From positions 1-64,000 of the forward strand of contig NZ_JAKGAM010000001.1 of NCBI RefSeq assembly GCF_023061285.1: a stretch of DNA of 64,000 bases, written 5' to 3'. Every line of letters begins with the position of its first letter. The stretch's first letter is position 1. Under the pieces are notes generated by a model. The model had not been told where the DNA came from. It was given only the letters and a program-made list of their open reading frames with translations, and searched no databases. A program made the translations under genes and the position numbers. Positions 11,945-59,081 of the stretch are shown here, in pieces. Source of the stretch: Chromohalobacter nigrandesensis. GTDB lineage: Bacteria > Pseudomonadota > Gammaproteobacteria > Pseudomonadales > Halomonadaceae.

Positions 11945-11999
11945 CGTCGCTTCCTCGTCGTTATCCGTGAAGGGGCGACGATCGCCGCCCCAAGACAGC

Positions 12000-13385
12000 T
12001 CAGCGTTTATCGTCCAAGTCTTCGCCCGGCAGGACGGTCTTGCCGGCAAAGTGATCATTGGTGAGCTTGAAGACCACCGGCGACAGCAGGGCCAGCGCGA
12101 TCAGGTTGGGGATCGCCATCATGGCATTGAAGACACTGGCCATCAGCCAGACGAACTCCAGTGGCGCGACGGCTCCGGCGAGAATCGCCAGAATATACAC
12201 CACGCGGTAGATCTTGATCGACGCGACACCGAACAGATACTCGAAGCACTTTTCACCGTAGAAGGCCCAGCCGAGGATGGTGGTGAAGGCGAACACGGCC
12301 AACGCGAAGGACACCACATACTGACCGACACCCGGGAGTGCGCCATCGAAGGCCATCGCGGTCAACGCGGCACCGGTCTCACCGGATGTCCACTCGGTGC
12401 TGGTCAAGATTGCCAGCGCAGTGACCGAACACACGATGATGGTATCGATGAACGTCCCCAGCATCGCCACCAGCCCCTGGCGCACAGGGTTCTTGGTCTG
12501 TGCCGCAGCGTGGGCGATCGGCGCACTCCCCAGCCCCGCTTCGTTGGAAAACACGCCACGCGCCACACCAAATTGAATCGCCTTGGCCACGGCGGCACCC
12601 GCAAATCCACCAGCGGCGGATACCGGTGTAAAGGCATGGCCGAAAATCAGCCCCAGCGCGGTACCAACATGATCCATGTTGATGATCAGCACCAGCAAAC
12701 CGCAGACGATATAAGCGATCGCCATGATCGGCACCAGCTTGCCAGCCACCTTGGCAATACGCTTGATCCCGCCGAGAATCACAGCACCCGCCAACAGCAT
12801 GATGATCACACCGGTTAGCCAATGCGGCATACCTATCGATTCGCTGAGACCATCGGCGACCGAATTGGATTGCACGGTATTGCCAATTCCAAAGGCAGCC
12901 ACAGCACCGAAAAATGCAAACAAACCACCCAACCAGGCCCATTTCTTACCCAGTCCATTGCGGATGTAATACATCGGCCCACCAACGTGATCGCCCGCCG
13001 CATCGACTTCGCGATAACGAACCGCCAGAACCGCCTCAGAGAACTTGGTCGCCATGCCCACCAGGGCCGTGATCCACATCCAGAATACGGCGCCGGGGCC
13101 ACCCAGGAAGATGGCGGTAGCGACACCCGCGATATTACCAGTGCCCACAGTGGCCGAAAGCGACGTCATCAGCGCATTGAACGGGGAAATCTCACCCTCA
13201 TCCTCATCGCCCTTTTCGGCTTTGCGACCTTTCCAGAGAAGACTGAAGCCCGCTCCCAGCTTGCGAATGGGCAGCAACTTGAGCCCCAGTTGCAGATAGA
13301 CGCCCACCCCCAGCAACAAGATGAGCATCAAAGGGCCCCATACGACATTATCGATGGCGCTGAATACCGCGTTGAGTGTTTCCAC
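12000..13385 (-). CDS. AGCS family sodium:alanine/glycine symporter
   Basis: 461-aa inner-membrane Na+-coupled amino-acid symporter with about 11 membrane segments. Family marks are SATVGTGNIAGVATAIFLGGPGA (about residues 75-97, read in parts), GGPMYYI, FSNEAGLGSAPIAHAAA and FTTILGWAFYGEKC. Start is GTG with GGGAGG 7 nt upstream; no better ATG is in frame. Being placed directly ahead of gcvT, and back to back with gcvH-gcvP, points to glycine (or D/L-alanine) import feeding the cleavage system; that is inference from context. Confidence 0.9.
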   Translation of the reverse strand: METLNAVFSAIDNVVWGPLMLILLLGVGVYLQLGLKLLPIRKLGAGFSLLWKGRKAEKGDEDEGEISPFNALMTSLSATVGTGNIAGVATAIFLGGPGAVFWMWITALVGMATKFSEAVLAVRYREVDAAGDHVGGPMYYIRNGLGKKWAWLGGLFAFFGAVAAFGIGNTVQSNSVADGLSESIGMPHWLTGVIIMLLAGAVILGGIKRIAKVAGKLVPIMAIAYIVCGLLVLIINMDHVGTALGLIFGHAFTPVSAAGGFAGAAVAKAIQFGVARGVFSNEAGLGSAPIAHAAAQTKNPVRQGLVAMLGTFIDTIIVCSVTALAILTSTEWTSGETGAALTAMAFDGALPGVGQYVVSFALAVFAFTTILGWAFYGEKCFEYLFGVASIKIYRVVYILAILAGAVAPLEFVWLMASVFNAMMAIPNLIALALLSPVVFKLTNDHFAGKTVLPGEDLDDKR

Positions 13386-35891: not shown

Positions 35892-35968
35892 CGGAGCGTG
35901 GCGCAGCTTGGTAGCGCGCTGCAATGGGGTTGCAGAGGTCGCTGGTTCGAATCCAGTCGCTCCGACCA
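35892..35968 (+). tRNA. tRNA-Pro, anticodon GGG
   Basis: 77-nt cloverleaf: acceptor CGGAGCG/CGCTCCG, D arm GCGC...GCGC, anticodon stem CTGCA/TGCAG around the loop ATGGGGT (anticodon GGG), T arm GCTGG-TTCGAAT-CCAGT (last pair G-T type), ACCA encoded. It reads codon CCC and resembles proL. A terminator follows at once. Its 3' end is a candidate phage attachment site, as prophage genes start about 1 kb downstream. Confidence 0.96.
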
Positions 35969-37264: not shown

Positions 37265-38175
37265 CCGCGATCACCGCATCACCCGTTTCCGTCGATTTCC
37301 ACGGCACCGCCATCCCGACCTTCAATGTTGAAGGCATTGTGCGCGTGGCCATGAAGCCGATCTGCGACGCCATCGGCCTCCAGTGGGAATCGCAGTACAA
37401 CCGAATCAAGCGTCACCCTGTGCTGGCTTCAACCATATCCATGATGAATATGGTTGCCGCCGACGGTAAGCGCCGCAAGCTGCTGACCCTGCCGCTGAAC
37501 AAGCTCAACGGCTGGCTGTTCGGCATCGACACCAATCGCGTCAAGCCCGAGATCCGCGAGAAGCTGGTCGAGTACCAGGCCGAGTGCTTCGATGTGCTGT
37601 CCAACTACTGGCAGAAAGGCCAGGCCACCAACCCCCGCACCACGCCCGACGAACGCGCGGGCCTTCGTGCCGCCGTGACGATGCTCACCACCAAGAAGGG
37701 CCTGATGCACAACGATGCGTACCGTCTGGTTCACCAGCGATTCAGCGTGGAGCACATCGACGAGCTGGGCACCGATCAACTGCCCGAGGCTGTGGCGTAT
37801 GTGCATCGCTTGGCGCTGGAAGGCGAGTGGCTGGGCCGCGACATGCCGCAGGCCGAGAGCGCCATCACCATCGACTACCCGCTGACTCGCCCCTGGAACG
37901 AATGGCGCGAAGGGCAACTGGTCGGTGACGACGCCATGTACCACTCCGACTTGCGCCGGCTTTTCCAGCAACTTGGCGAGGCCGAGCGCAGCGGCGGTGC
38001 GGTGACGGTTCACAACGTTGCCGGGCTGCGCGAGGAGTTCAAGGCGCTGACGTCGCTTTGCGAGAATCACGGCACGCGCTTGCGCAAAGCCAATGCCCAG
38101 CTCGAGCATGTGCGTGATTTCACACGCTCGATGGTGAACTCGGTGAACGGGGTCGTTGCGACACTGGATCGCTAG
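37261..38175 (+). CDS. Phage antirepressor (P22_AR_N type)
   Basis: 304-aa protein. The N-terminal domain FHGTAIPTFNVEGIVRVAMKPICDAIGLQWESQYNRIKRHP (read in parts) and LTLPLNKLNGWLFGI, then VKPEIREKLVEYQAECFDVL, match the P22 Ant N-terminal domain. Antirepressors bind and disable phage repressor. The C-terminal part is not assigned. GAGGAG lies before the ATG. Control by the upstream C4-type RNA is expected from synteny. It is on the plus strand, opposite the tail genes. Confidence 0.82.
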   Translation: MTAITASPVSVDFHGTAIPTFNVEGIVRVAMKPICDAIGLQWESQYNRIKRHPVLASTISMMNMVAADGKRRKLLTLPLNKLNGWLFGIDTNRVKPEIREKLVEYQAECFDVLSNYWQKGQATNPRTTPDERAGLRAAVTMLTTKKGLMHNDAYRLVHQRFSVEHIDELGTDQLPEAVAYVHRLALEGEWLGRDMPQAESAITIDYPLTRPWNEWREGQLVGDDAMYHSDLRRLFQQLGEAERSGGAVTVHNVAGLREEFKALTSLCENHGTRLRKANAQLEHVRDFTRSMVNSVNGVVATLDR

Positions 38176-38255
38176 TCGCTCGGCAGCTCACCCTTTACCC
38201 GGCTGGATAAGCTGCCGCCATCCAGCCGGTGTTATAGCGGAGGCAAAGAATACCG

Positions 38256-39308
38256 CTATTGAATATCAGAACCATATTCAATCAGCAGCTCATCGTACTC
38301 GCCTGCCGCCAGGGCCTCTTCACTATACTCAATGCTAAGAGACTCTATTTTCTTCCTTTTCTTGTATAACCCGAGCTCTAAGCTAGCATGCCGGATAGCC
38401 TCGTCTTTCAGATAGTCTGTATAGCCTTCAAAAACAGGATAGTCATTAAGCACCAGAAGGCGGTCCAACTGAGCATGCAGCGAAGACATCGTCATCTCTT
38501 TTTTTGCTAACGCCGTAGATTCAGCAAATAGCAAAAATTGCTCGGACAGAATATGCAATCGATAAAGCTCTTCGCTACTCAAGTAATTCTTGCCAGTCCT
38601 TGCTTCCTCCTTAGTCGGAAAGTCTCCGCGAATGGATAGGAGCCCCATACTATCTTCATGATGACTGGCCCTATCCAGAATCAGCTTCGAGCTAGTCATC
38701 CCAGTTATAGCGTGATGAAACTTGTCCTGAAGCAGCGCATAGAAGCTTCTCACTTCGTTGGAAGAGGGGTTGTAGTCAGAGGAGCACAGTTTGAAGCACT
38801 CGCGCACCTTGGCGTAAACCTGTTTTTCCTCCGAGCGTAGAGCCCGTACCTTCGCGGCTAATTGGTTAAGTTTTTCCGGCGACTCCCGCAAAGCCTTTTC
38901 ATTGATCACATAACCTTGTTCAATGAAAGCCCTTAACGTTCGGGTCGCCCATTTCCTAAAAGCTACTGCCCTTTTCGCATTAACCCTGTACCCAACGGAC
39001 AAGATCATATCTAAATTATAATGCTCCACGTCGGAGCGAAGAACCTCTCTACCTCCCTCATTTTGAACTATTGCAAATTTTGCAATAGTTGACTTTTTGT
39101 CCAACTCCTCATCTTTGTATATGTTGGATATGTGCCGTTTTATATTGGAATAGCTAGCGCCGAAAAGCTCTGCTATCTCCTTGCCACTGACCCACAAGGA
39201 TTGGTCGCTTGGATCAAACCTTACATCAACACTCACACCCTCATCCAAAAAAGTCAGCAGGTTATTATTTTCTTCCAAATTGGGAGTAACAGCCTTTGTT
39301 TCATCCAT
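38256..39308 (-). CDS. RhuM-family protein (phage cargo)
   Basis: 350-aa protein. The N-terminal half shows the RhuM/KilA-N-like sequence VSGKEIAELFGASYSNIKRHISNIYKDEEL (in parts), NEGGREVLRSDVEHYNLDMILSVGYRVNAKRAVAFRKWATRTLRAFI. The rest is helical and charged. RhuM proteins occur in pathogenicity islands and prophages; function unknown. Visibly more AT-rich than its neighbours, with long TTT/AAA runs, which indicates separate acquisition. It lies after gene D at the end of the tail operon; GAGGTG precedes the ATG. Confidence 0.75.
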   Translation of the reverse strand: MDETKAVTPNLEENNNLLTFLDEGVSVDVRFDPSDQSLWVSGKEIAELFGASYSNIKRHISNIYKDEELDKKSTIAKFAIVQNEGGREVLRSDVEHYNLDMILSVGYRVNAKRAVAFRKWATRTLRAFIEQGYVINEKALRESPEKLNQLAAKVRALRSEEKQVYAKVRECFKLCSSDYNPSSNEVRSFYALLQDKFHHAITGMTSSKLILDRASHHEDSMGLLSIRGDFPTKEEARTGKNYLSSEELYRLHILSEQFLLFAESTALAKKEMTMSSLHAQLDRLLVLNDYPVFEGYTDYLKDEAIRHASLELGLYKKRKKIESLSIEYSEEALAAGEYDELLIEYGSDIQ

Positions 39309-39400
39309 GGGCGAGCACCTCATATTAGCCAGCGATGATGGCCTCATCCTAGCGCGAATCACGCTTTTTGCTAAGCAATGAGTATGGCCGCGTTGAAACG

Positions 39401-40414
39401 CTAGTCGCTCGGCAGTTCACCCTTCACCTGACATTGGTAGCCGGCATCGTTCAGGGTGTGCGTCACCGACGTGATCAGCCATTCGCCGTCGGCGCCCTCG
39501 CGGAAGTCAGACAGCGCCAGCCGGCCCTCGGCCATCAGTCGGGTATCGCCCGGCAGTGTAAGGTTGAGGGTCTGCTCGCCGCGCTGGCCACGACGTAGTT
39601 CGGCCCGAGCGGCTGCTCGAGCGCTTTCCTCATCGGGGTGGATGGTCTGCAAGCGTTGGACCGGTTCGCCCTCGCCTTCGGTGATCTCGAGCGTTGCCGC
39701 GGCATCGGTGTCACGCCATCGCGCCACGACGCTTCCCGCATTGCCACGCTTGGCCAGCTTCATACGGCCGCTGCTCACCATGTCCGGCGTAACGGGAACA
39801 GTCGGCAAGCTCTCCCCGCTCTCGTTTGCCACCATCGAGGCAGCGCGCTTGGCGATCACGAGCGCACCGCCAGCCGGTTTTGCAATGCCGTCGTAATCGC
39901 GCGCCAGCCGCGTCAGCAGGTTCATATCGGATTCGTCCGTCTGATCGACATGCGGCAATGCGATCGATGCCATGACGTCCTGTATAGCGGGATCGAGATC
40001 ATGCTCGCCGGCGATGGATCGTGCCATATCCCCCAGCAGCGTACCGGCATCCCAACTGCGGGTTTTCTTTGTTTGCAGCATGGGGCGTGTACTGCCCTCG
40101 CCCGAGTCGCTCTTCGCCTGCGGCGCGGCCTTGGCGACGATCTTGAGCTGGTTGGGTGGCCAGCTCATTTCCAGGCTGTCGACCACGTAGCGCCCCATGC
40201 TGACGGCGTCATCATCGTAGCCCAGGAACGCTTCGAGCTCCGCGCCGGTTGGGGGCAATGCGAGCGGGTCTTCCGGGGCATGATCACTGACAACCAGCGT
40301 CAGCTCGTCACTATCGGCACCGGATTCATCGCGGATCTTGAGCGAGACGAAGCGTTCGCGCAGCTGGCGGGTAATGTCTTCGTCGTTGGCGGTAATGCGA
40401 AATGTCGGCTTCAT
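39401..40414 (-). CDS. Late control protein D (gpD), tail hub
   Basis: 337-aa P2 gpD family baseplate hub protein that caps the tail tube below the tape measure. FRITANDEDITRQLRERFVSLKIRDESG and LPPTGAELEAFLGY (in parts), SDMNLLTRLARDYDGIAKPAGGALVIAKR are typical. The start ATG overlaps the gpX stop (ATGA), so it is coupled. Last structural gene of the tail operon. Confidence 0.9.
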   Translation of the reverse strand: MKPTFRITANDEDITRQLRERFVSLKIRDESGADSDELTLVVSDHAPEDPLALPPTGAELEAFLGYDDDAVSMGRYVVDSLEMSWPPNQLKIVAKAAPQAKSDSGEGSTRPMLQTKKTRSWDAGTLLGDMARSIAGEHDLDPAIQDVMASIALPHVDQTDESDMNLLTRLARDYDGIAKPAGGALVIAKRAASMVANESGESLPTVPVTPDMVSSGRMKLAKRGNAGSVVARWRDTDAAATLEITEGEGEPVQRLQTIHPDEESARAAARAELRRGQRGEQTLNLTLPGDTRLMAEGRLALSDFREGADGEWLITSVTHTLNDAGYQCQVKGELPSD

Positions 40415-43681: not shown

Positions 43682-44188
43682 TCAGACACCTAGCGCCGTG
43701 CGCAGATCCGCCAGCAGATCCACGCCGTCGACGGTGCGGATCATGTTCTCGACGTCGATCTCGTGGACGGTGACGCCGTCGTGCTCTTCCTTGTAGTAAT
43801 CAAGCCGCATGGTGACGGTCATCGACGCCACCTGGCCCGCCTGCCAGGTGCCTCGATCAAGGCTGGTGATCTTGCCGCGCATGGTGTGCACAGTTGGGCG
43901 CCAGGTGCCGTCATAGGACTGCATGGCGCCACGGCCCACGAACGGCACGTTGTTACCCTCGGAGACGCCGAATTGACGCAAGATCTCGCGGTCGTAGGAA
44001 CGCAGCACGAATGAACTTTCAAGCGCCTCCATGCCCATATCCAGCGTGATCGGCGCATCCATGCCGCCCGCGCGATGCTCCTCGGTAGAGAGGGTCAGCA
44101 CCGGCGGCGTGTACTCCATGACCTGGCCGGCATAGCCACGGCCATCCACGGAGACGGTCATCTGTTTGATAATGTTGCGAGCGGCCAT
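43682..44188 (-). CDS. Major tail tube protein (gpFII)
   Basis: 168-aa P2 FII family tube protein: IIKQMTVSVDGRGYAGQVMEYTPPVL (in parts), RAGGMDAPITLDMGMEALESSFVLRSYD, and MRLDYYKEEHDG. Start and the sheath stop overlap (TAATG). A small GC hairpin (about 43646-43665) separates it from gpE. Confidence 0.93.
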   Translation of the reverse strand: MAARNIIKQMTVSVDGRGYAGQVMEYTPPVLTLSTEEHRAGGMDAPITLDMGMEALESSFVLRSYDREILRQFGVSEGNNVPFVGRGAMQSYDGTWRPTVHTMRGKITSLDRGTWQAGQVASMTVTMRLDYYKEEHDGVTVHEIDVENMIRTVDGVDLLADLRTALGV

Positions 44189-45702
44189 TACGCGAACACC
44201 TCCTCGATGTAGTCATTCACCAGCTTGCTGCGGAATGTGACGCGCTCCGCCGGGTACGGTGGGGTGAACTCGAAGTTGAAATAGACCTGGCCTTTCTGGA
44301 CGTTGGCCGGGGTGTTGAGGTCGGGATCCGCCCAGCAGCGCCCACCCAGCAGCGCACCTTGTGCTTTCAGGCTGCCGATGTAGGCGTTGACGCCTTCGGT
44401 GACGTCTTCGACGTAGGTCTTGGTAATGTTGCGATCCACCGCCCACAGGTGCGTGCGCTGGATGCTGTCGTTGATCATGTCCGCCGTACGGCGCACGGAG
44501 ATGAATACCCACTTGGTGTCATCGGTCAGGCTGCGGTTGCCCCACAGGCGATAGCCATCCTGGTTGATGATGGTGGCGATCCCGCCCTCGTTGAGCAGGT
44601 TGGCGCGCGCATTCTCGTCGCCCAGAGTGAAATCGACACTGCGGCTCGTGCCCAGAATGCCGTAGATCTCTTTGTTCGACGGCGACCACCAGAAGCCTTG
44701 CTCGTTGTCGATGCGGGCAATAAGGCCGGCGACACGTGCCGATGCGGGCTCGCTGGTATTGCTGCCATCGCTCTGCAGGATCTTCACCCAGGGATCGACC
44801 ATGTAGATGCGAGCGCTGCCCCAGTCCTCGGCATATTGCTGGGCTGCATCGTCGGTGGTGTTGGGGCCATCGGCGACGATGATCGCCCGCATGCGATTCG
44901 CGATGCCCTCGAGCTCGGCCACCACCGCATTACGCAAGCCGCTGTCACGCTGATGAGTGAAACCTGGCGCACAAAGAATACGCGGGGCGAAGCCGACTTC
45001 AGACTCGGCGGCGGTGAAGGCATGAACGCCCTCGAACTGCCCGGTCTCGGCGTTGACGCCACCGACCACGTTAGCGATGGTCTCTTGCTCGTCTTCGGCC
45101 TTCTCCACACGGATGACAATAACCACCGCCCCGACCTGGTCGAAGATCCCTTCCATCGCCGATGGCAACGTGCCTTCGGTCCCCAGCTTGGCGGCTTCCG
45201 TGCGATTGCCCGCCACCATGGTCGGCATGTTGAGCGGGAATGGCTCATCTTCGCCGCCGGAGAGCTCGCGCCAGCTCCGAGCCCGAGGCACGCCAGTGCC
45301 ATCCGAACCTTCGACGACTGCCGCCGTCACCAGGCTGGACGCGTCCGCCTCATCGTTCACGGCCGCGGCGATCTCCTGGGCTGTCGATGTCAGCTCGCCA
45401 TCGGCATCCGTGGCCAGCGTCACGGTGACGTCCTTGCCATTGATGGAAACCGCCAGCGATGCGCTCGACTCGCCAGGCGCCACGTAGCGAACACGGATGT
45501 TATTGCCGGCGGTACCGCCATCAGCGGCGGTAAACAGGATGCCAGTGTTGGCCGCTGACGTGCCGATAGTGAGCTCGGCAGCGGTCTCCCCTTCTGCCTC
45601 CGGCGCGGTACCGACGATGCCGATCACGCCCGAGCGGACTGTCTGGATGGGTCGCGGACCGGTATCGATCTCGAGGACCTCGGCCCCGTGGAGAAATGCC
45701 AT
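44188..45702 (-). CDS. Contractile tail sheath protein (gpFI)
   Basis: 504-aa sheath subunit of the P2 FI family. HGAEVLEIDTGPRPIQTVRSGVIGIVGTAPEA at the start (in parts), an inserted variable domain (about 50-150), and a conserved C-terminus WGNRSLTDDTKWVFISVRRTADMI ... GGRCWADPDLNTPANVQKGQVYFNFEFTPPYPAERVTF (in parts). It makes this a myovirus-type tail. Confidence 0.95.
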   Translation of the reverse strand: MAFLHGAEVLEIDTGPRPIQTVRSGVIGIVGTAPEAEGETAAELTIGTSAANTGILFTAADGGTAGNNIRVRYVAPGESSASLAVSINGKDVTVTLATDADGELTSTAQEIAAAVNDEADASSLVTAAVVEGSDGTGVPRARSWRELSGGEDEPFPLNMPTMVAGNRTEAAKLGTEGTLPSAMEGIFDQVGAVVIVIRVEKAEDEQETIANVVGGVNAETGQFEGVHAFTAAESEVGFAPRILCAPGFTHQRDSGLRNAVVAELEGIANRMRAIIVADGPNTTDDAAQQYAEDWGSARIYMVDPWVKILQSDGSNTSEPASARVAGLIARIDNEQGFWWSPSNKEIYGILGTSRSVDFTLGDENARANLLNEGGIATIINQDGYRLWGNRSLTDDTKWVFISVRRTADMINDSIQRTHLWAVDRNITKTYVEDVTEGVNAYIGSLKAQGALLGGRCWADPDLNTPANVQKGQVYFNFEFTPPYPAERVTFRSKLVNDYIEEVFA

Positions 45703-45769
45703 AATGGTGTGCCTCTTGCCTGATCAGGTGTTCCGAACGGTAAGAACAGCATGACCGGGCCACGCGCGA

Positions 45770-45789
45770 GGCTCCGCTGGCAGTGGTTC
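45770..45789 (+). repeat. Dispersed phage repeat, copy 1
   Basis: GGCTCCGCTGGCAGTGGTTC, exact, between the sheath gene and the cargo gene. Same orientation as the other copies. Confidence 0.85.
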
Positions 45790-45828
45790 TATCTACTGCC
45801 TCAAAAAAAACAGTACGCGAGGAATGAA

Positions 45829-46284
45829 ATGACTTGGACGTGTGATTCATGCGGGCAGCCCATCTATAACATTCAAGATGGCTGGGTTGAGTGGTTAACA
45901 AGGATGGGACCGAATGGCGAGTCTCTCTATTCTCATTCCATGAGACTGGTTCACCACATGCCATCATCTCCTCAGAGGGGTGGATGCCAGTACGATGGTC
46001 ACCGAACCTACGCTGTTAGCAAAGACTTGAATAGCGATTTAGACTTAGAGTTCTTTGCATCACCTGATGGCCTCACCGACCTTTTACAGAAGCTATCGGA
46101 TAACGAGTTCCATAACCAAGAAGAGCTCATTGAGATGATCAAGCGCCTCCATCTTCCCAACTATGAGGAAGCCCGCCTTTACCTCACTGAAGCGGTTGCC
46201 CAAGGGGTTTTCGAACCCAACAGCAAGCCTGGTTATCCTCATCAAGGACAACTTTTAGCGGTTCGTCGCTGGACAGGTATTTAA
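45829..46284 (+). CDS. Cys-rich cargo protein at the P2 Z/fun position
   Basis: 151-aa protein of unknown family, on the strand opposite to all neighbouring tail genes. A probable zinc-binding N-terminus (CDSCGQPIY ... HSMRLVHHM ... GGCQYDGH) is followed by an acidic, helical C-terminal half. Composition is more AT-rich than the flanking phage genes and it has its own GAGGA site and a terminator, so it is an independent unit (moron). In P2 the Z/fun gene, which excludes phage T5, occupies the same place between tail-fibre assembly (G) and sheath (FI). A phage-defence role is inferred from position only. Confidence 0.7.
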   Translation: MTWTCDSCGQPIYNIQDGWVEWLTRMGPNGESLYSHSMRLVHHMPSSPQRGGCQYDGHRTYAVSKDLNSDLDLEFFASPDGLTDLLQKLSDNEFHNQEELIEMIKRLHLPNYEEARLYLTEAVAQGVFEPNSKPGYPHQGQLLAVRRWTGI

Positions 46285-46299
46285 CCAGCAAACTAATAA

Positions 46300-46326
46300 G
46301 AAGCCCGCCGAAAGGCGGGCTTCCTT
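46300..46326. terminator. Bidirectional terminator between cargo gene and tail-fibre assembly gene
   Basis: AAGCCCGCC/GGCGGGCTT with a GAAA tetraloop, then TCCTTTC. It isolates the cargo gene from the tail genes. Confidence 0.85.
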
Positions 46327-46869
46327 TCACCACTCCACCGCTTCAATCCCTTCCCGATCCTCATCTTCGAGCGCAGCGGCAACGGCGTCCTTCCGTTCCC
46401 ACGAGCGCTTGTAGACCCCTTCGATGTAATCGAGCGCAGCGGTGGTCAGCGCGATCATTTCCTCGGGGTTGAGCATGCGCGTTTTGTTGCTCTTGCCGCG
46501 AAACTCCATGACCGCGTCGGTGACGCCGGCGGCTTTGTTCGACTCGGCTTTGGCGCGTAGCCCCAGGAGATTGATTTGATCCTGCGCGCGTGTCTGGACG
46601 ACGTCAGGCTCGCCGGCGACGTCGTAGTCGAGGCCGGTGGCGAAGGCCTGGTCGCGGGCGGCGTCGATGGCTCGGCGCTTGCGTTTGGCGAGTGTATCGA
46701 GGGACGGCGGCGGGTTGGCGATCTTTCGGGCTTCGTCTCCGTCGATTGGCGTCAGATCGTCTGGCATATTGGCATAATGCACGCCATTTATGGTCTTGGC
46801 GTCGGTGTCCACCTCTTCACTGTCGCCGTAGGCATAAATGCGCCCTACCGGTGTTTTGAAATGCTGCAT
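46327..46869 (-). CDS. Tail fibre assembly protein (gpG-like, DUF4376)
   Basis: 180-aa protein directly after the tail-fibre gene. The C-terminal part (RKRRAIDAARDQAFATGLDYDV ... ALTTAALDYIEGVYKRSWERKDAV, in parts) matches the DUF4376/tail-fibre chaperone type. It probably helps fold or attach the fibre. The first residues (MQHFKTPVGRIYAYGDSE) are phage-specific. Confidence 0.7.
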   Translation of the reverse strand: MQHFKTPVGRIYAYGDSEEVDTDAKTINGVHYANMPDDLTPIDGDEARKIANPPPSLDTLAKRKRRAIDAARDQAFATGLDYDVAGEPDVVQTRAQDQINLLGLRAKAESNKAAGVTDAVMEFRGKSNKTRMLNPEEMIALTTAALDYIEGVYKRSWERKDAVAAALEDEDREGIEAVEW

Positions 46870-46870
46870 A

Positions 46871-48463
46871 TTAATAGGTCTCCACCCAAATAATGTCGTT
46901 TATGGTGCCAAGGTTTGTATCACAGCCATAAGTGCTGCCGTTAGGCACTATGAAGGTTAGGTTGCTCCTCGCGTCACCCGATGCGTCTTGCATTAAGCCC
47001 ACCTCTATACCGTCAACATGAAAAACTGCGGGGTTTTGGTTATTCTTTGTAACAGCAACTAACATCGGTTTACCCGTCGTATTTGTATACGTCGCTCCTT
47101 CGCTGCGGTTGTTAGTCTCGTCGTGGACAGCGGCGAATAGCTGGTCTTTTGTGTAGTAATCGTCAGGGTTGAAATCGGCGCTTGTGAGTATACTATCCCA
47201 ACTTCTCCAAACCCCCTGACTCAGTACCCTAACGTAAACGTTTCTCGTATTAACGTCGAAGGCCATTTGCACACTGTAATCCCCACCACTTCTTGTTATT
47301 ACAGTAGCAACTCCGCCAGACCAGCCCGGAGGGCTATTTAACGCAGTTTCTCGCGCGGTATATGCTCCCGTATCAAGAGCAATATTAAAATCTGATAATT
47401 CAGGTGGATCCTGAGACCCAAGGCCAAACGCACCGACTTCCATAACGTTGCCACTGTTGGTACCGACGGTGCGAGTAGCAGCGCTGCCTAGCCCATCAAG
47501 AACATCATTGATCGCCTCAATCGCCGCATTGAGCCCCGTAATGGCGCTCATAGGGTGCGCGCCTGATGCGTCACGGCCTGCAATGTCGTTATGGTTTTCT
47601 GCCTGGGCAGCGGCTCCCAGACCATTAAGAACTTCATTGATGGAAGTAATTGCAGCATCGAGTCCTGAAATAGCACTCATGGGGTGCGCGTCGGCATTCG
47701 AGCGGCCGGCGATGCCGTTGTGTGTCTCGGCTTTGGCCGCCGCGCCCAGGAGTGCCAACACCGCTTGTACGGTATCGGCATCGCCGAATGCGTTAAGAGG
47801 CGTGTCGAGCGCGATTTTTGACGCGTTATGTGCCTGGGCTTCTTCTTTGTGCTGATCAATCGCGGCTTTCACCCCAGCGAGGTGCGCGGCGCGGTCTGTG
47901 CGGGTGCCTGCCCGCGTCTGTTCGCTGGTGCCGAACTGCATCATTCCCTTGGCGCTGGTCGTGGCGTCGGGGTGGTTGCGGCTTTGGGCGTGCTGGTCGA
48001 TCTCGTCGTCGACGTATTCGCGTGTTGCCAGCACCACGCTGGGGTCGACTTTCAGCGTGACGGCGGCGGTGTCCGAGACCTGCATGACGAAGCGGATTGT
48101 CTGCGTCCTGCCTGAGCCTTCCGACAGAACCGGCTTGTAAGTCTCGGGGTAGTTTCCGTAGGCGATCATATCGCCGTCCGAGTCGAACAGACCGATTTCG
48201 CGAATCGTCCAGCCACCTTCGTCCGGTGGGATCACTTGTTCGACGACGATCCAGTTCGGATTGTCGTCGTCCACGACGCTGGTGTTGATCGGCGCGCGGC
48301 GCACCTGGTTGACCAGCGACGTTCGGTCGCTATCCGGGTCGGGTAGCTCACCATTGCCGTCGCCGATGGCGAGCTCGGCGATGGTGAGGGTTCGGCCGAG
48401 GGCAATGGCATTGGCGATCTTGGCTTCGCCGACGGCGGTCGGCACGGTATAGAACTTCGCCAT
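46871..48463 (-). CDS. Tail fibre protein (gpH-like)
   Basis: 530-aa fibre. Residues 1-150 are the conserved baseplate-binding domain of P2 H (FYTVPTAVGEAKIANAIALGR, PIAELAIGDGNG type). Residues 239-323 contain two 43-residue repeats (LGAAA-x-AE-x-HN-x-IAGR...AHPMSAI-x-GL) and a partial third. A GNVMEVGAFGLG hinge leads to a C-terminal half with clearly lower GC, the likely receptor-binding part, acquired separately. It decides host range in related phages. Confidence 0.88.
   Translation of the reverse strand: MAKFYTVPTAVGEAKIANAIALGRTLTIAELAIGDGNGELPDPDSDRTSLVNQVRRAPINTSVVDDDNPNWIVVEQVIPPDEGGWTIREIGLFDSDGDMIAYGNYPETYKPVLSEGSGRTQTIRFVMQVSDTAAVTLKVDPSVVLATREYVDDEIDQHAQSRNHPDATTSAKGMMQFGTSEQTRAGTRTDRAAHLAGVKAAIDQHKEEAQAHNASKIALDTPLNAFGDADTVQAVLALLGAAAKAETHNGIAGRSNADAHPMSAISGLDAAITSINEVLNGLGAAAQAENHNDIAGRDASGAHPMSAITGLNAAIEAINDVLDGLGSAATRTVGTNSGNVMEVGAFGLGSQDPPELSDFNIALDTGAYTARETALNSPPGWSGGVATVITRSGGDYSVQMAFDVNTRNVYVRVLSQGVWRSWDSILTSADFNPDDYYTKDQLFAAVHDETNNRSEGATYTNTTGKPMLVAVTKNNQNPAVFHVDGIEVGLMQDASGDARSNLTFIVPNGSTYGCDTNLGTINDIIWVETY
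47490..47749 (-). repeat. 43-residue repeats in the tail fibre gene
   Basis: Two 129-nt units encoding LGAAA...NEVLNG and LGAAA...NDVLDG, plus a truncated third (LGSAATRTVG). The composition shift in the gene begins just after them. Confidence 0.8.
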
Positions 48464-50365: not shown

Positions 50366-50384
50366 GCTCCGCTGGCAGTGGTTC
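50366..50384 (+). repeat. Dispersed phage repeat, copy 2
   Basis: GCTCCGCTGGCAGTGGTTC between the V and W genes. Here the flank makes a perfect stem, GCCAGCG/CGCTGGC with a 5-nt loop (50358-50376). Confidence 0.85.
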
Positions 50385-52917: not shown

Positions 52918-55014
52918 TTACGCGGTAGTGTTACGACCCAGGCAGAACGACTCGACGCGACGCACGGCCATATCGACGTCCTGGAACACCACCAGGCGAG
53001 TGCCGCCGGATTTCGACAGGCTGTACGGGTCGACGGTCAAGTCGAGACCGCCCCACAGACCGATGATCAGGTCAGCGAAGTTGCCGAAGAACAGATCGCC
53101 GGTCTGGATCTGGTTGGTCACTTCGGTGCCGTAGCCGTTGACGGTATTACCCTGCTCCCAGATCGGTGCACCATTGGTGCCCTCGAACTTCTGAGTGGTC
53201 TTGCAGTGGCCACGCATCATCGACGCCATCACATACGCCATGGAGTTCACGTCAGCGTTATCGGCGGCGATTTCGCTTTCCATCTTCACCACCTCGGCAT
53301 AGGTGGGCTTGCCGGTCGTGGCGAGGTTGACCGCGTTGATGCCTGAGGTCTGCGCAATACCGGTCGGCTCGTTACCACCGGCACCGTAGAAGCCCGCGAG
53401 ATCGACGGCCTGCGCCACGGCAGAGGCCAGGTCGTTACGCACTACGCGCTCGGCGTCCGGAGTGGACTGCAGCATCAAGCGGCGCGTGATGTCGGTATAG
53501 GCCGCGACGGTCTTCGGGGATAGCGCGATCTGCCCGATGCTCGGCGTCCCCTCCTCGGCGTCCTCACCTTCCCCCAGCCAGTAAGCGGTGGCGCCGCCGG
53601 TCTGCTTGGGGATCTCGACGTTGCCGACTAGCCCGCTCATGGTGGTGGCCAGACGCATCAGTGCCGTGCGGTTACGCAGCATCTCGATGAAGCTGCCGGC
53701 CATGTACTGGGTATCGACCAGGCCATCGCCCGTCTGGGCGCCGCTCGGCGTATCAGACGCGCCGCCAGCATTGAAGGCACGGGAAAGCACGTCGTCGGGA
53801 ATCAGAATCCCGCGCGCCTGCTTGCCGTACTGACGCTCAGCTTCAGAGGAAAGCTCCAGCTCGAACTTGGCGGCCTCCTGGGCGCGCTTATCCTGAGGAT
53901 TCGCCAGGGCCCGAACCACCTTCATCATCGAGTAGCGCTGCAGGTCCTGATCAGTCATGCCGATGCTGGATGAGCGGGTTTCGGTCTCGCCGTTATCGGT
54001 CACCGCCTTGGAACGCTGCTTGTGCATTTCGCCCAACAGCGCACGCTGGAACTCCTCGGGGCTCTTGCCATCGCTGACGTAGCGGGTCGCCAGGTCAGGG
54101 TTCTCATACTCGCGGCCCATGTCCATGATCGCTTTGACGCGGGCCTGCTCGGCCTGGACGCCGGCCCGACGGGCCTGGTTCTGATCATCGCCGGCGCGCT
54201 CGATCATCTCGAGCACTTCGACGATCTCGTCTTGCTCGTTGACCTTGGCGCGGACCAGGTTGCCCTTCTTGTCGCGCAGGATCTTTTCGTTCATCTCGCT
54301 ATCCTTTTGGTGTGTCCTGGAAGCGCCAGCAGCGCCGCTCGATTGATTGCGTTCATTGCTGGCAGTATCAGGCCCGCCCGTGCCCGGCTCCGCTGGCAGT
54401 GGTTCCCGCGAGCGCCCTACGCCCACTGAAACGTCTGCCGCCACAGAGACGATGCTGATCTCATGCGGCTCCCAATCGGTCACGCGCACCATGTCGGCTT
54501 GCCCAGAGCGCTCCTCAATCTCCACCTTGTGAATCGAGTAGCCCACCGAGACTTGCCGACGGATGCTGTCAACCACGTCCTGCCACACCTCGGAAGCCCG
54601 AGCGCCCTTACCAAAGCGCACCGTCGCCCGGCCCCGCCGATCGGCTCCCACGGTGACAGACTCCACCACGCCCACTTGGTCATCCCAGTCATGATTGACC
54701 AGGAGTGCCGCCCCGTTCTCGAGACGCCCCGTGCGCATGGCGCCTTCGCCGTGGTCCAGCACCTCGATGCCAAACCACCGCTCCACCTCGGCCTCGCTGG
54801 AAAACGCCAGCTCGACCGTGCGTTTTTCTTCATCGATGGCCCTTACTTCGCCACCAATCATGTCGCGCGTCAGACCCTCGGCCTTCATCTTGCGCAGCTG
54901 CTCTTCGGTGACGCTGCGGGTCTGGTGGCTACCCTCAAGCTCACGGGCCTTATCGGGCTCACGCGGGACAGTCGGCTGATGCCGGCGGTCGCGAACGTCG
55001 CGCTTATCCTTCAT
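52918..55014 (-). CDS. Fused HK97-type prohead protease and major capsid protein
   Basis: 698-aa protein. Residues 50-200 are a U35-type prohead protease: His108 in LVNHDWD and Ser160 in VGYSIHKVE as catalytic residues. Residues 241-698 are an HK97-fold major capsid protein with a helical scaffold-like delta part (260-330). The linker (200-240) is Gly/Ser-rich and contains EPLPAEP from repeat copy 3. An internal ATG at 54294 (Met241) has AAGGA 8 nt upstream, so a separate capsid chain may also be made. Overlaps the portal gene by 11 nt. Confidence 0.88.
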   Translation of the reverse strand: MKDKRDVRDRRHQPTVPREPDKARELEGSHQTRSVTEEQLRKMKAEGLTRDMIGGEVRAIDEEKRTVELAFSSEAEVERWFGIEVLDHGEGAMRTGRLENGAALLVNHDWDDQVGVVESVTVGADRRGRATVRFGKGARASEVWQDVVDSIRRQVSVGYSIHKVEIEERSGQADMVRVTDWEPHEISIVSVAADVSVGVGRSREPLPAEPGTGGPDTASNERNQSSGAAGASRTHQKDSEMNEKILRDKKGNLVRAKVNEQDEIVEVLEMIERAGDDQNQARRAGVQAEQARVKAIMDMGREYENPDLATRYVSDGKSPEEFQRALLGEMHKQRSKAVTDNGETETRSSSIGMTDQDLQRYSMMKVVRALANPQDKRAQEAAKFELELSSEAERQYGKQARGILIPDDVLSRAFNAGGASDTPSGAQTGDGLVDTQYMAGSFIEMLRNRTALMRLATTMSGLVGNVEIPKQTGGATAYWLGEGEDAEEGTPSIGQIALSPKTVAAYTDITRRLMLQSTPDAERVVRNDLASAVAQAVDLAGFYGAGGNEPTGIAQTSGINAVNLATTGKPTYAEVVKMESEIAADNADVNSMAYVMASMMRGHCKTTQKFEGTNGAPIWEQGNTVNGYGTEVTNQIQTGDLFFGNFADLIIGLWGGLDLTVDPYSLSKSGGTRLVVFQDVDMAVRRVESFCLGRNTTA
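54386..54405 (+). repeat. Dispersed phage repeat, copy 3 (in frame in the protease-capsid linker)
   Basis: GGCTCCGCTGGCAGTGGTTC, exact; read on the minus strand it encodes EPLPAEP, residues 204-210 of the fusion protein. Confidence 0.85.
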
Positions 55015-56581
55015 TGCTCGTCTCTCCTGCGGTTTCGCCCTGGGGCGTACTGCTGCCGCTATTCATGGCGGGGTCGCCCAATGTCGCGTCGACCAGGGCC
55101 TCGGGGATGCCGGCGTCGATCATGGCCTGCCGATCGCTCGCCCACTGACGCCACACGCTGCGCGGATCGCCGCCGCGTTCGCGGATCACCTGCGAGGGGG
55201 ATTTGATCTTGTTGGCGATGTCGCGCGCGGCGGTCTTGGAGTCCTTGTCCGGATCGACCCAATCCCAGCGGCGCGCCTGCCAGTCATGCGCGCGGTATTT
55301 TTCGATGCGCTCGGCTCGCAAGGTGGCGCCGTTGGTGCCGGGCACGGTGATGCCCTTGAGCAGGGCTCGGGGTAGCCACGCCTGGTACACGGGTTCCAGC
55401 AGCTGCTCGATCAGCCACTCCTGCAGCTCCATCCAGTGATCGCGGGAATTGAGCACGCCATGGCGCAGGCTCGAGAAATTGACGTCGCCCAGGTCGTTGG
55501 CCAGCGTCGGGTAGTCGATCCCCATGCCGGTAGCGATCCCGCGCAAGCTCTGCTTGGAGAACGGTGCCAGCTCGCTAGTCGGGAACTGAGGTTCCCAGGG
55601 CTTGAACTTGAGCCCGGGCGGGAGTTCCTGGAACGACCCGGGCTCGGCGTCCATGTACAGCGGCTCGTGCTCGTCGCCATCATCCTCGTCGACGGGGCCC
55701 ATGCCCTCTTCCCACTCAAACCATCCGCCCTTGGCGGAGGAGACGCGAGCATTGACCAAGGATGCTTTCTCGAACCCATCCAGGTGATGCAGGCGTAGCA
55801 CGGCGGTGACCATCCACGGCAGGCCACGGCGCTGCCCCACAAGATCTTCGAGGAAGCCGTGGACCACTTCCTCGGCGGGCACTTCAACGAAATTGCGCCC
55901 GCCAAAGCGGTAGTCACTCTCCGACGGGTCGAGGGTGCCGAACAGATAGGCGACGGCCCGGCCCCAGCGGTTGTACTTGATGCCCTGCCGAATGAATTGC
56001 CCGCCCGGCAAGCGGTCTTCATTGACCTCCACCGGGCAGCGCTGCGGGTCCAACACCTGGATGGCCAACCCCCACGGGTTGAGGTTACGACCGTAGACAA
56101 TCCGGAACATGAACTCGCCGTTGATTGCGGCGTCTTCCGCTGCACGTGACAGCAACTGTCGGAAGGAACGACGCCCGGCCACGTCGCAGATGCGCCGGTC
56201 ACACCATTTGGCAAAGTCGCCTTCGATGGCATCGTTGGCGCGCTCATCGAGCGTTCCGTCGGCGTCTTTGGCCTGGGCCTGCAACTGGATGCCTTTGCGT
56301 CCCACCACGTTCTGTCGCACCTGGCGCACGAAGCCTCGGGCGTAGTCGTTGGTCAGCAGCAGGTGGCGCGAGCGCGCGACCAGGGGGCGCTGATTCTTGT
56401 CGATGAACTGATCGGCCGGTACCGGTGTTGTCGGCAGGTCAGCCGACAGCCGGTCGGCCTTTGCCTGGCCCAGCAACGTGCGCGACAGCGCACGGGGGAT
56501 GGCCCGCATACGCGAGCGTGGAGCTGGTTGCTGACCTGACGGCGCCGCCGCTTTCCGGCGCTTGAGCAATTCAAGCACCAT
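55004..56581 (-). CDS. Portal protein (lambda gpB family)
   Basis: 525-aa dodecameric portal through which DNA enters and leaves. LTNDYARGFVRQVRQNVVGRKGIQLQ, SRAAEDAAINGEFMFRI, GMGIDYPTLANDLGDVNFSSLRHGVL and DWQARRWDWVDPDKD (in parts) are the lambda-type portal blocks. ATG at 56581 (MVLELLKRRK) has GAGG 7 nt upstream. Confidence 0.93.
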   Translation of the reverse strand: MVLELLKRRKAAAPSGQQPAPRSRMRAIPRALSRTLLGQAKADRLSADLPTTPVPADQFIDKNQRPLVARSRHLLLTNDYARGFVRQVRQNVVGRKGIQLQAQAKDADGTLDERANDAIEGDFAKWCDRRICDVAGRRSFRQLLSRAAEDAAINGEFMFRIVYGRNLNPWGLAIQVLDPQRCPVEVNEDRLPGGQFIRQGIKYNRWGRAVAYLFGTLDPSESDYRFGGRNFVEVPAEEVVHGFLEDLVGQRRGLPWMVTAVLRLHHLDGFEKASLVNARVSSAKGGWFEWEEGMGPVDEDDGDEHEPLYMDAEPGSFQELPPGLKFKPWEPQFPTSELAPFSKQSLRGIATGMGIDYPTLANDLGDVNFSSLRHGVLNSRDHWMELQEWLIEQLLEPVYQAWLPRALLKGITVPGTNGATLRAERIEKYRAHDWQARRWDWVDPDKDSKTAARDIANKIKSPSQVIRERGGDPRSVWRQWASDRQAMIDAGIPEALVDATLGDPAMNSGSSTPQGETAGETSNEG

Positions 56582-57113
56582 GGCCAAACCTCGCTAGCAC
56601 GGGGCGGCCCAGCGTGTTGCGGCCCTTGCGCGCAGCACGTATTCGGCGCACTTCATTGCGGTAGACGTCGCGCAGCTTGAGCAATTGGCTGATGGGGGTG
56701 CGGCGCAACTCGCGGTTGTTGATGCGGTAGCTGTCCTGATCCTTGCTGGCGCGTCCCTCGATCACCGCCTCGATAGCCTCGAGGGTCTTCTCGGCGTGGG
56801 TGCGGCCATCGAAGTCGGCATCAGCAGTGGCGAGATCGGGCAGCACCTTGAGCGTGCCGGTGTCGACCTCGTGCACCTCGGTGCCATCGGTTACTCGAAG
56901 GCTGTACCAGTAGTCGCCGGCTTTCCATTCGCTGGTGGTGTCGGCGTCGGCCTGAAAAGCATGCAGCCTGCCGTCGGGCTCGGACGTGAGATCAATGGAC
57001 TGGACGCCACGCAGGATCAGCGTTGCCGACCACTCCGTGGCGGGGTATGCGGTCAGCGCCAGCGAAATCGCCAGCGTTGTGCCTGCCGTCATGCGTTCGG
57101 GAATGCCTGCCAT
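56571..57113 (-). CDS. Head protein with gpW-like C-terminus
   Basis: 180-aa protein between TerL and portal, where lambda has W. The N-terminal two thirds are a beta-rich domain (LAISLALTAYPATEWSATLILRG ... GDYWYSLRVTDGTEVHEVDTGTL, in parts); the C-terminus SYRINNRELRRTPISQLLKLRDVYRNEVRRI (in parts) resembles gpW-type connectors. In lambda gpW stabilises packaged DNA. The domain combination is common in such prophages; function by position. Confidence 0.65.
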   Translation of the reverse strand: MAGIPERMTAGTTLAISLALTAYPATEWSATLILRGVQSIDLTSEPDGRLHAFQADADTTSEWKAGDYWYSLRVTDGTEVHEVDTGTLKVLPDLATADADFDGRTHAEKTLEAIEAVIEGRASKDQDSYRINNRELRRTPISQLLKLRDVYRNEVRRIRAARKGRNTLGRPVLARFGHGA

Positions 57114-57116
57114 GCG

Positions 57117-59081
57117 TCACCAGTTGTTGACCCAGCTCGAGCGCTGTCGCCTGGATCGTCCCGTGGATGTCTTGCGCCTAGTCTTGCGCTTGCGGGGCTT
57201 GGGCTCCGCTGGCAGTGGTTCTGGCGCAGCATCCGGTGACGTCGGTGTCTCGTCGCCCTCTTCAGGCTGCTCATATTCCGCCAGCCGCGCAGCGTGGCGT
57301 TTGAGGCTGGGGCTAGCGATCTTGAAGGCGGCGTAGGCATAGGCGCGGCAGTCGAGTGCCTCGTTGCGCGGGCGGGTCTGGTGCCATTCCCGCTTGGGCA
57401 CGCCCTTCACGTACTTGGTCACCAGCTTCTCAGCGGTGAGCTGATGGAACCACTCGGCCTCGCGGTCGGCGGGGATATGCGTAAAACCGGGCCCGTGATG
57501 CTCTACCGCCAGCCGCCGCATGATGGTGAGCTTGGCTTCGTCGACACCAATCGAGAACAGGTCTACCTTCCGCTTGCCGCGCCCCGTACGCTTGCGTGAT
57601 GGCGCCGTCACCACCGGGCGATCCCAACCCGGTACGCCCTTGATGGCGAACAGGCGACGCCCCGTCTTCCCGCGTGCGTATTCGTAGGCGCGTTGGGTAT
57701 AACCACTGCTGCCGCCGGTATCCAGGCAGGATGCGATGATGCCGAGTTGGGCGCCGCTCTCATGAGTCCAGGTGGTGGCCAGGTAGTCATCGAGGTCACG
57801 CCACACTTCTTCCTGCAGCGGATCACCCCACAACACGGTGTAATCCACCGACCAGGATTCCTCGCCGTAGCCCCAGGCAACGGTTTCCATCTCGAGTCGG
57901 TCTTGCTGCATGTCGATGCCGGTGGTGAGCACCACGCCACCAGCCGGCACTGGCGCCTTGTAGCTCTCCGCGCGCTCCATGAGGACGTGTGCCTCGGCCT
58001 GCTCTCCCTGCTCTTCCCACGTCTCGGCCAGACTGACGTTGATGAACGACTGCAGGTCGCCCTTGGCCTTCTTGTCGAGGAACGACTGGATGATGTCGCG
58101 CAGTCGGCGAAAGCACGAATAGATCTCGTTGAGGTGATAGCTGGCGTGGCCACGGAACGGCTTGCTGGATTTCCACCCGGCACCGACCTGCTCGGCGGTA
58201 CGAATCGCCGCGATGCGCTCGCCGTCGTTCCACATCACGCCGCAGTGCTTGCAGACGTAGGCAGCGGTTTCCGGATGGTGGGTGCCATCGTCGTCCTTGT
58301 CCCAGGTGACCTGGTGCCAGTCGAGTGTCTGGTGATGGTCGCAATGCGGGCAGGCGACGTAGAAGCGGCGCTGATCCCCGGCGTCATAAGAGGCCTCGAT
58401 CTTGCTCTCGCCCTTGATGGTCGGCGTGCTGATCTCGAGGAGCAGGCGTTGATCGCCATAGGTGGCGGCACGCTGCCACAAAAGCTCGACTTCATCGCCC
58501 TCGCCGGTGCCGCTATAACCATCCACTTCATCGGCGACGATCAACGGCGCCGAGCGCCCGCGCATCGTCTTGGTGGAGCCGGCCCAAGCGAACATTAGGA
58601 AGCCGCCGGGATAGGACTTCATGCGCTGGTTGTTGACGCCCTCGTGGCTGCGCGGCTTGGCCAGCAGGTTCTGCAGCGATGGATTCGCATCCACCATCGG
58701 GTTGAATTTGGTTTCCAGCCAGGTGGTGAGGTCGCCCTGACTGGGCTGCATCATCATTTGGCTGCTCGGTTCGTGGGCGATGCTGTAGCCCTGCAGGCAT
58801 AGCGCCAACTGGGTCTTGCCGACCTGAGCGCCCCACATCAGCGAGATGCGATAGCAACCGGGATGCACGGCCATGTCCATCGGCTCGCGCTGGTACGGCG
58901 CATTGTCGAAGCGAATAGGCCCCGGGATCGCGTTGCCGGCGGGGATCCTGACGTTGGTTTCGGCCCACTCGCTGGGCTTGAGTGGCGCCGGCGGCACCAG
59001 GTGACGGGCGCTGCGCTTCAGGGCACGCAGCACGCCTTTGGTGTTGCTGAACTGCTCGGCCGCGTCAGTCGCTTCCGTCAT
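57117..59081 (-). CDS. Terminase large subunit (lambda gpA family)
   Basis: 654-aa packaging motor: ATPase Walker A-like WGAQVGKTQ, Walker B ADEVDGY, then a C-terminal nuclease. Zinc-type CPHCDHH and CKHCG pairs lie in the middle. The last 27 residues are very basic (KPRKRKTRRK), preceded by EPLPAEP (621-627) from repeat copy 4. gpA family enzymes cut at cos sites, so the phage may have cohesive ends. Overlaps TerS by 17 nt. Confidence 0.95.
   Translation of the reverse strand: MTEATDAAEQFSNTKGVLRALKRSARHLVPPAPLKPSEWAETNVRIPAGNAIPGPIRFDNAPYQREPMDMAVHPGCYRISLMWGAQVGKTQLALCLQGYSIAHEPSSQMMMQPSQGDLTTWLETKFNPMVDANPSLQNLLAKPRSHEGVNNQRMKSYPGGFLMFAWAGSTKTMRGRSAPLIVADEVDGYSGTGEGDEVELLWQRAATYGDQRLLLEISTPTIKGESKIEASYDAGDQRRFYVACPHCDHHQTLDWHQVTWDKDDDGTHHPETAAYVCKHCGVMWNDGERIAAIRTAEQVGAGWKSSKPFRGHASYHLNEIYSCFRRLRDIIQSFLDKKAKGDLQSFINVSLAETWEEQGEQAEAHVLMERAESYKAPVPAGGVVLTTGIDMQQDRLEMETVAWGYGEESWSVDYTVLWGDPLQEEVWRDLDDYLATTWTHESGAQLGIIASCLDTGGSSGYTQRAYEYARGKTGRRLFAIKGVPGWDRPVVTAPSRKRTGRGKRKVDLFSIGVDEAKLTIMRRLAVEHHGPGFTHIPADREAEWFHQLTAEKLVTKYVKGVPKREWHQTRPRNEALDCRAYAYAAFKIASPSLKRHAARLAEYEQPEEGDETPTSPDAAPEPLPAEPKPRKRKTRRKTSTGRSRRQRSSWVNNW
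57202..57221 (+). repeat. Dispersed phage repeat, copy 4 (in frame in TerL)
   Basis: GGCTCCGCTGGCAGTGGTTC, exact; encodes EPLPAEP near the TerL C-terminus on the minus strand. Confidence 0.85.

Follow-up and report, generated by a model that had tools for sequence, protein, structure and literature searches.

The closest described counterpart of the gene analyzed here is fun (Z) of phage P2, which sits between the tail genes FI and G (in the accessible portion of PMC3091744). In the P2 reference record, the order is G, the terminator of the V operon, the antiparallel gene fun(Z), an activator site of the F promoter, and FI; the record describes fun as a nonessential gene of lysogenic conversion that blocks T5. 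According to the available sections of the same paper, genes foreign to P2 that were acquired horizontally are very common in the Z region of P2-like phages, and in one strain a Burkholderia P2-like phage carries a DNA methylase at the Z site, for which the authors infer protection from restriction (PMC3091744). For E. coli, the fun-bearing locus of P2-like phages is presented, in the excerpt at hand, as the second defence-enriched locus, with three reported defence systems (PMC9519451). Flanking inverted repeats of fun that are used for exchange are reported, with reference to Nilsson 2004, in an accessible passage of PMC8987985, and the other P2 locus, old/tin, located between gpA and gpQ, is treated in the available part of PMC9122126.

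The window, that is, the whole analyzed stretch of 64,000 nucleotides from Chromohalobacter nigrandesensis, ends in a prophage that combines a P2-type tail operon on the minus strand with a lambda-type head (a GpA terminase, a lambda-family portal and an S78 protease fused to the capsid). A tRNA-Pro gene at 35892–35968 may be the attachment site. Tail gene D is directly followed by an AT-rich gene of the RhuM family, at 38256–39362 on the minus strand (Pfam E = 1.5e-65; PADLOC candidate PDC-S05, E = 8e-107); the RhuM gene is flanked by a 35-bp direct repeat (38165–38199 and 39394–39428, 89%) that includes the end of D, as if the gene had been inserted.

A single plus-strand gene is found between the G-like tail-fibre assembly gene (46327–46869, minus strand; DUF4376, E = 7.9e-17) and the sheath gene FI (44188–45702, minus strand; phrog_23, E = 7.6e-119), antiparallel to both. 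This gene, hereafter the cargo gene, extends from the ATG at 45829 to the TAA at 46284 and encodes a protein of 151 aa with a predicted N-terminal zinc-binding module and a C-terminal helical domain. It shares with P2 fun the position between G and FI, the orientation, and the placement after a terminator and, as given for P2, before the FI promoter. Both genes are also low in GC, namely, 32.8% for P2 fun versus 56.0% for its FI, and 48.7% for the cargo gene versus 63.2% for FI in the window. The 12 tail genes compared range from 56.1 to 66.6% in GC and from 0.62 to 0.82 in GC3, so that the cargo gene has the lowest GC of all, with a GC3 of 0.51. The initial annotation had described a 151-aa, AT-richer gene opposite to the tail operon, between the fibre assembly and sheath genes, at the site where P2 carries its T5 exclusion gene; all of this agrees with the flanking genes, the composition and the layout of the P2 record. 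The proteins themselves differ in size, with 528 aa for Fun, as calculated from the coordinates, versus 151 aa, and membership of the cargo protein in the P2 Fun family was rejected because none of 21 family members matched the P2 stretch at E ≤ 0.01 (tblastn).

The start of the cargo gene is preceded by a Shine-Dalgarno-like GAGGA at 45819–45823 on the plus strand, five bases 5' of the ATG. An alternative in-frame start at 45751 would yield a protein of 177 aa; the homologue alignments inspected start at residues 1–3 of the 151-aa form. Compared with its nearest relative, the cargo gene has a dN of 0.20 and a dS of 1.01, that is, mostly silent substitutions, and the dN/dS values of the family are 0.20, 0.08 and 0.24 for the three unsaturated pairs (dS was saturated in three other pairs). 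The cargo gene is under purifying selection. Given the full-length homologues and the mostly silent substitutions, the cargo gene is real and not a chance open frame. The FI promoter (minus strand) and any promoter of the cargo gene (plus strand) would be expected inside the divergent spacer of 126 nt at 45703–45828. A scan of 45500–46900 for sigma-70 consensus promoters yielded none, with 0.6 expected, so that a promoter of the cargo gene's own is at most putative.

The spacer also harbors one copy (45771–45789) of a 19-bp prophage repeat, GCTCCGCTGGCAGTGGTTC (plus strand), which is present in four exact copies of the same orientation, the others being located at 50366–50384, 54387–54405 and 57203–57221. 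In this order, the copies precede FI by 69 nt, W by 19 nt, an internal capsid start (54294) by 93 nt and the gene at 56571–57113 by 90 nt. Matches of this type with up to three mismatches are expected 0.06 times per shuffle, and the genome contains no further copy of the 17-bp core. Judging from this arrangement, the repeat may be a late-gene control element. Ogr-like dyads (GTTGT...ACAAC) upstream of FI were observed in 13 of the 40 related loci described below and are absent from the window.

The site was surveyed in related tail loci of the bacterial family of the window, where the sheath protein had matches in 52 of 201 genomes. Besides that of the window, there were 62 sheath places, of which 40 were fetched, one was dropped because of its location at a contig start and 21 were dropped because of lower scores. 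In four of these 40 loci (L058, L059, L061 and L072), the sequence upstream of the sheath is cut short by the end of the contig, and the upstream tail gene was undetected in L061 and L072. For 16 loci in which G escaped detection by homology, the gaps were measured from a fibre gene or another gene and are hence too long. Relatives of the cargo gene were found in none of 44 other P2-type tail loci (the 40 fetched loci plus P2, ZRG1, AcaML1 and Valp1; tblastn with 21 members, E ≤ 0.01), so that conservation as a tail structural protein, which had been named initially as a refuting observation, was not what the comparison revealed. At least one antiparallel ORF of at least 90 aa with a GC content at least 6 points below that of the sheath was present in 19 of the 40 family loci (26 ORFs, called mechanically, so that some short ones may be spurious). 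Adding two forward ORFs and one from the phage record OR820920 gives 29 site proteins, which fall into 17 clusters at E ≤ 1e-5. The assertion that the site varies among P2-like phages is thus corroborated, in line with the accessible parts of PMC3091744 and PMC9519451.

Among the 29 site proteins, named matches were acyltransferase-3 (5), SGNH (3), DUF1508 (2) and sulfatase (1), and a PADLOC match, to Cas2b, was obtained for one. The named cargo at the site in the family prophages is mainly envelope-modifying, and acyltransferase-3 is the only recurrent named enzyme (5 of 29) among the other site cargo. In ZRG1, AcaML1 and Valp1, with sheaths that are 50–60% identical, the annotation leaves 60 to 150 nt in front of the sheath gene, and the site is empty. 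The Z/fun site is a real turnover site, and its nameable content is mainly other than known defence. The other cargo (acyltransferase-3, the family of the OR820920 ORF and small membrane proteins) resembles the cargo gene in site, low GC and mostly antiparallel orientation, whereas the proteins are unrelated to the cargo protein.

Three further observations concern this other cargo. The acyltransferase-3 genes, which were encountered repeatedly at this site in prophages of the family (L056, L058, L064 and L066), could be involved in surface or serotype conversion. An unnamed protein family of 194 aa, without a Pfam match, occupies the Z/fun site of four phages or prophages (OR820920, 10687–11271, as well as L060, L065 and L082). 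The same genome that contains the window also carries a second P2-type tail locus (L095, G000:C1:650200-658700) with a short-form sheath and a different, 190-aa antiparallel ORF at the site.

Behind the cargo gene, a hairpin with a stem at 46300–46323 (−22.2 kcal/mol, z = −4.7) is separated by 3 nt from the G stop codon, where the P2 record has the V-operon terminator. Hairpins of the GCCCGC/GCGGGC type numbered 33 in 70,475 nt of the gaps before FI versus 2 in 263,048 nt of other sequence from these 40 loci. They were present in 28 of the 40 loci, in nine of which they were at most 60 nt from the last detected tail gene and in 15 at most 160 nt from FI, and short gaps that appear to be empty contained them as well (L063, 176 nt; L069, 120 nt). 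Because of this enrichment and the presence in apparently empty gaps, the hairpin is the terminator of the tail operon. The hairpin of the window is this conserved terminator, common to the convergent cargo gene and tail operon, and the cargo gene sits between it and FI. The terminator that had initially been ascribed to the cargo gene does exist, but it is not the gene's own. Whereas the window has one hairpin next to the cargo gene, OR820920 has two, one after the cargo gene and another after the next ORF, which would fit an exchange at the hairpin.

OR820920, which was deposited as Bacillus phage vB_BpuM-ZY1, encodes a 62% identical protein at the Z/fun site, in the same orientation as in the window. 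The nucleotide identity is 64% over 501 columns, from the start codon through the hairpin. The sheaths of OR820920 and the window are about 31% identical, and the other significantly matching tail genes 28–56%. The gene at 11476–12201 of OR820920, annotated as a DNA methyltransferase, matches only DUF4376 in Pfam (E = 6.8e-16) and is 53% identical to G of the window; it probably encodes a fibre-assembly protein. The tail proteins of OR820920 are of the P2 type, like those of the family of the window, and the host label Bacillus pumilus may deserve a check; the available part of the phage description gives a GC content of 58.4% and an endolysin that clusters with Halomonas (PMC11448403). In another genome (G091), a 71% identical cargo gene is followed by a short stretch that matches the end of G, with the best 20 residues at 80% (E = 2e-4; G of the window itself reaches only E = 0.016). 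No other convincing tail genes were found beside it in the 18 kb fetched. On this modest evidence, G091 appears to be another, third instance of this site, with the prophage around it all but gone.

Relatives were also found far outside P2-type phages. They are present in 24 plasmid records (20 from Xanthomonas, three from Paenibacillus and one from Halomonas) plus a Rhodococcus plasmid, in two more genomes of the family of the window, in two loci from a scan of genome contigs (a Verrucomicrobia MAG and a Pseudanabaena contig), in 13 Gordonia phage records and in nine distinct viral contigs (L016–L020, L024, L025, L103 and L104), which were reached via alignments and family members. When the window protein served as the only query, no viral contig was hit; the Rhodococcus member likewise recovered none, and a later member query recovered only one contig, already among the nine. 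The Gordonia proteins (Attis gp30 and its kin) have the same motif and C-terminal signature; they are linked to the family via L016 (E = 1e-4), L022 (E = 5e-19) and the fold (Foldseek E = 1.1e-05). They differ in that they belong to an actinomycete siphophage and its integrase cassette, and their direct identity to L016 is about 23%. Within its genus, one of 10 genomes has the cargo gene, namely, that of the window, and within the family, four of 250. Samples of the class (1 of 369) and of the phylum (1 of 299) contained only the window's own gene, with at most 10 or 12 first-look candidates scored per genome, so that misses are possible. The family spans plasmids, phages and genome contigs of five phyla and, as judged from these sequences, the cargo gene moves between them independently of the tail. 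L103 2397–2882 and L104 5815–6432 share the N-terminal pattern but form a more remote branch, and L103 has both branches. Nearly the same gene is found on the Halomonas plasmid and on a contig of another family genome (L003 and L014; dN 0.017), in a shared mobile region with umuDC annotated on the plasmid.

Elsewhere, too, the family occupies typical moron places. In Gordonia phage Attis, the relative is flanked by a minor-tail gene and the integrase and has an annotated toxin as a neighbour; in L017, it is downstream of a lambda-type integrase at the contig end; in L024 and L025, fibre genes lie on one side of it and a lysis gene (an amidase or an M23 endopeptidase) on the other; and on the Rhodococcus plasmid, it adjoins an AbiD-type protein and a NACHT protein. 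In L020, a Mu-type transposase is 1.5 kb away. Several plasmid contexts include toxin-antitoxin genes near the relative, and others contain nothing telling; no obvious defence gene was seen in the regions viewed of the Xanthomonas, Paenibacillus and Halomonas plasmids and of L010. Since the contexts share no predicted partner gene, the cargo protein probably acts alone.

The cargo protein contains neither a predicted membrane segment nor a named enzyme domain. It had been called Cys-rich, which is not the case for 3 Cys of 151 residues. These belong to a C-x2-C...H...C motif (C5, C8, H42 and C53; with a spacing of H-x2-11-C or so), which is kept in all 21 family members, although, as the members were gathered as homologues, some conservation is expected. 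The four ligand-type residues persist down to 22% identity, and R.....YE near the C-terminus is kept among the 21 compared, with R106, Y112 and E113 being near-invariant; the L024 member has a stop inside the motif. The motif would be expected to bind one zinc. AlphaFold2 on 11 sequences gave a confident model (pLDDT 93.4, pTM 0.85), with a strand-rich N-terminal module and a helical C-terminus (pLDDT 88 for the C-terminal part alone), but a match to a solved fold did not emerge. The best Foldseek hit of the full model in the PDB had E = 0.74 and the best VIA-align Z was 3.3, which falls short of proving a new fold; a fold search with the C-terminal domain alone and a sequence search of the PDB gave no match and nothing meaningful, respectively. 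The resemblance to a LIM chain was weak (Z = 2.4), and AlphaFold models carry no metal. In BFVD, the only significant match was a family member from Gordonia phage Lamberg (Foldseek E = 1.1e-05).

The statement that no family is recognized holds for Pfam, NCBIfam and PADLOC-DB 2.0.0, the profiles of which gave a best E of 0.042 for the window protein and 0.008 for 11 members, but not entirely for PHROG. The unnamed, function-less phrog_35745 matches residues 2–145 of the window protein weakly (E = 0.0017). With a threshold of E ≤ 0.1, it matches six of the 11 family members searched, the lowest value being 2.1e-06. The mycobacteriophage zinc family PF24331 (E = 0.019) and rubredoxin-like proteins (E = 1.2 or worse) were rejected as too weak. 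A literature search found no paper describing the family; as the family is nameless, this negative result carries little weight.

Its position, orientation and mobility, the selection on it and the company it keeps indicate that the cargo gene is a lysogenic conversion (moron) gene, and two other readings can be set aside. The gene is short, and its relative on phage contig L024 has a stop in the motif, as a chance open frame or a decayed gene might; with full-length homologues in five phyla and a dN/dS of about 0.2, this is next to impossible. The location inside a tail gene cluster would suit a structural, assembly or late-control protein of the tail, which we consider very improbable and reject: the gene is on the opposite strand, all 44 other P2-type tail loci lack it, including L056 and L057 with 75–76% identical sheaths, relatives are found on plasmids, and in OR820920 a divergent tail accompanies a 62% identical cargo protein. 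The cargo gene lies between G and FI, antiparallel behind the tail terminator, and is exchanged between phages rather than conserved with the tail; it thus occupies the P2 Z/fun cargo site as mobile cargo and not as a tail part.

What the cargo does is a matter of several readings. The likeliest single role is that of a zinc-binding protein expressed in the lysogen that excludes other phages, since the homologous P2 position does so, as do other systems found there; we give this role about an even chance. Speaking against it are the failure of PADLOC models to match, the many contexts in which no defence gene was obvious, the mainly envelope-modifying nature of the named cargo at the site and the negative promoter scan. 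Unlikely, yet worth considering, is a host-fitness or maintenance gene without an anti-phage role, for instance, a zinc-dependent adaptor or a regulator of stress or metabolism. The lack of a match to defence families would agree with such a gene, as would the recurrence on large plasmids and on a MAG contig where defence genes are missing from the neighbourhood, as would the weak likeness of the N-terminal half to small zinc and ribosomal proteins (best Z 3.3, below a meaningful level), but the fun site and the other phage moron positions do not, nor does the sparse distribution (4 of 250 family genomes), which is typical of arms-race genes. Rather improbable, too, is counter-defence cargo, in which the small zinc protein would shield the mobile element from host restriction or other immunity on entry. 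Relatives of the cargo gene are found on conjugative plasmids, plasmids and phages alike, and anti-restriction genes likewise occur on all of these. A precedent at the Z site would be the DNA methylase of the one Burkholderia strain, as the available text describes it (PMC3091744). However, the cargo gene is antiparallel to the late operon in both the window and OR820920, outside any early operon, and the persistence of the G091 copy in an almost-gone prophage is a better fit to a benefit for the host.

For phage exclusion, which we infer from site, mobility and company, a possible course of events is as follows. The cargo gene would be transcribed while the prophage is quiescent. Its product, a cytosolic protein acting alone, would bind an essential component of an incoming phage, or a host factor that this phage needs, via the conserved helical C-terminal face. 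The lysogen would thereby exclude competitors; P2 achieves this with other proteins, Fun and Tin. Like the P2 gene at this position, the cargo gene probably protects its host against rival viruses. A broader proposal is tentative, and we regard it as possible rather than probable: the gene would represent an anti-phage family so far undescribed, the members of which act as single genes, have a zinc-dependent fold outside the solved structures and are spread over several defence sites, P2 Z/fun included, on phages, plasmids and further elements from at least five phyla.

The Z/fun site is a busy cargo site in the prophages of this halophile family, and in E. coli it is known, from the accessible part of PMC9519451, to hold defence genes. 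One of the genes at the site is a member of a family that crosses phyla and has neither a name nor an assigned function or solved fold. If this cargo gene excludes phages, it would represent a new defence family, and the Z/fun site would be predictive outside E. coli.
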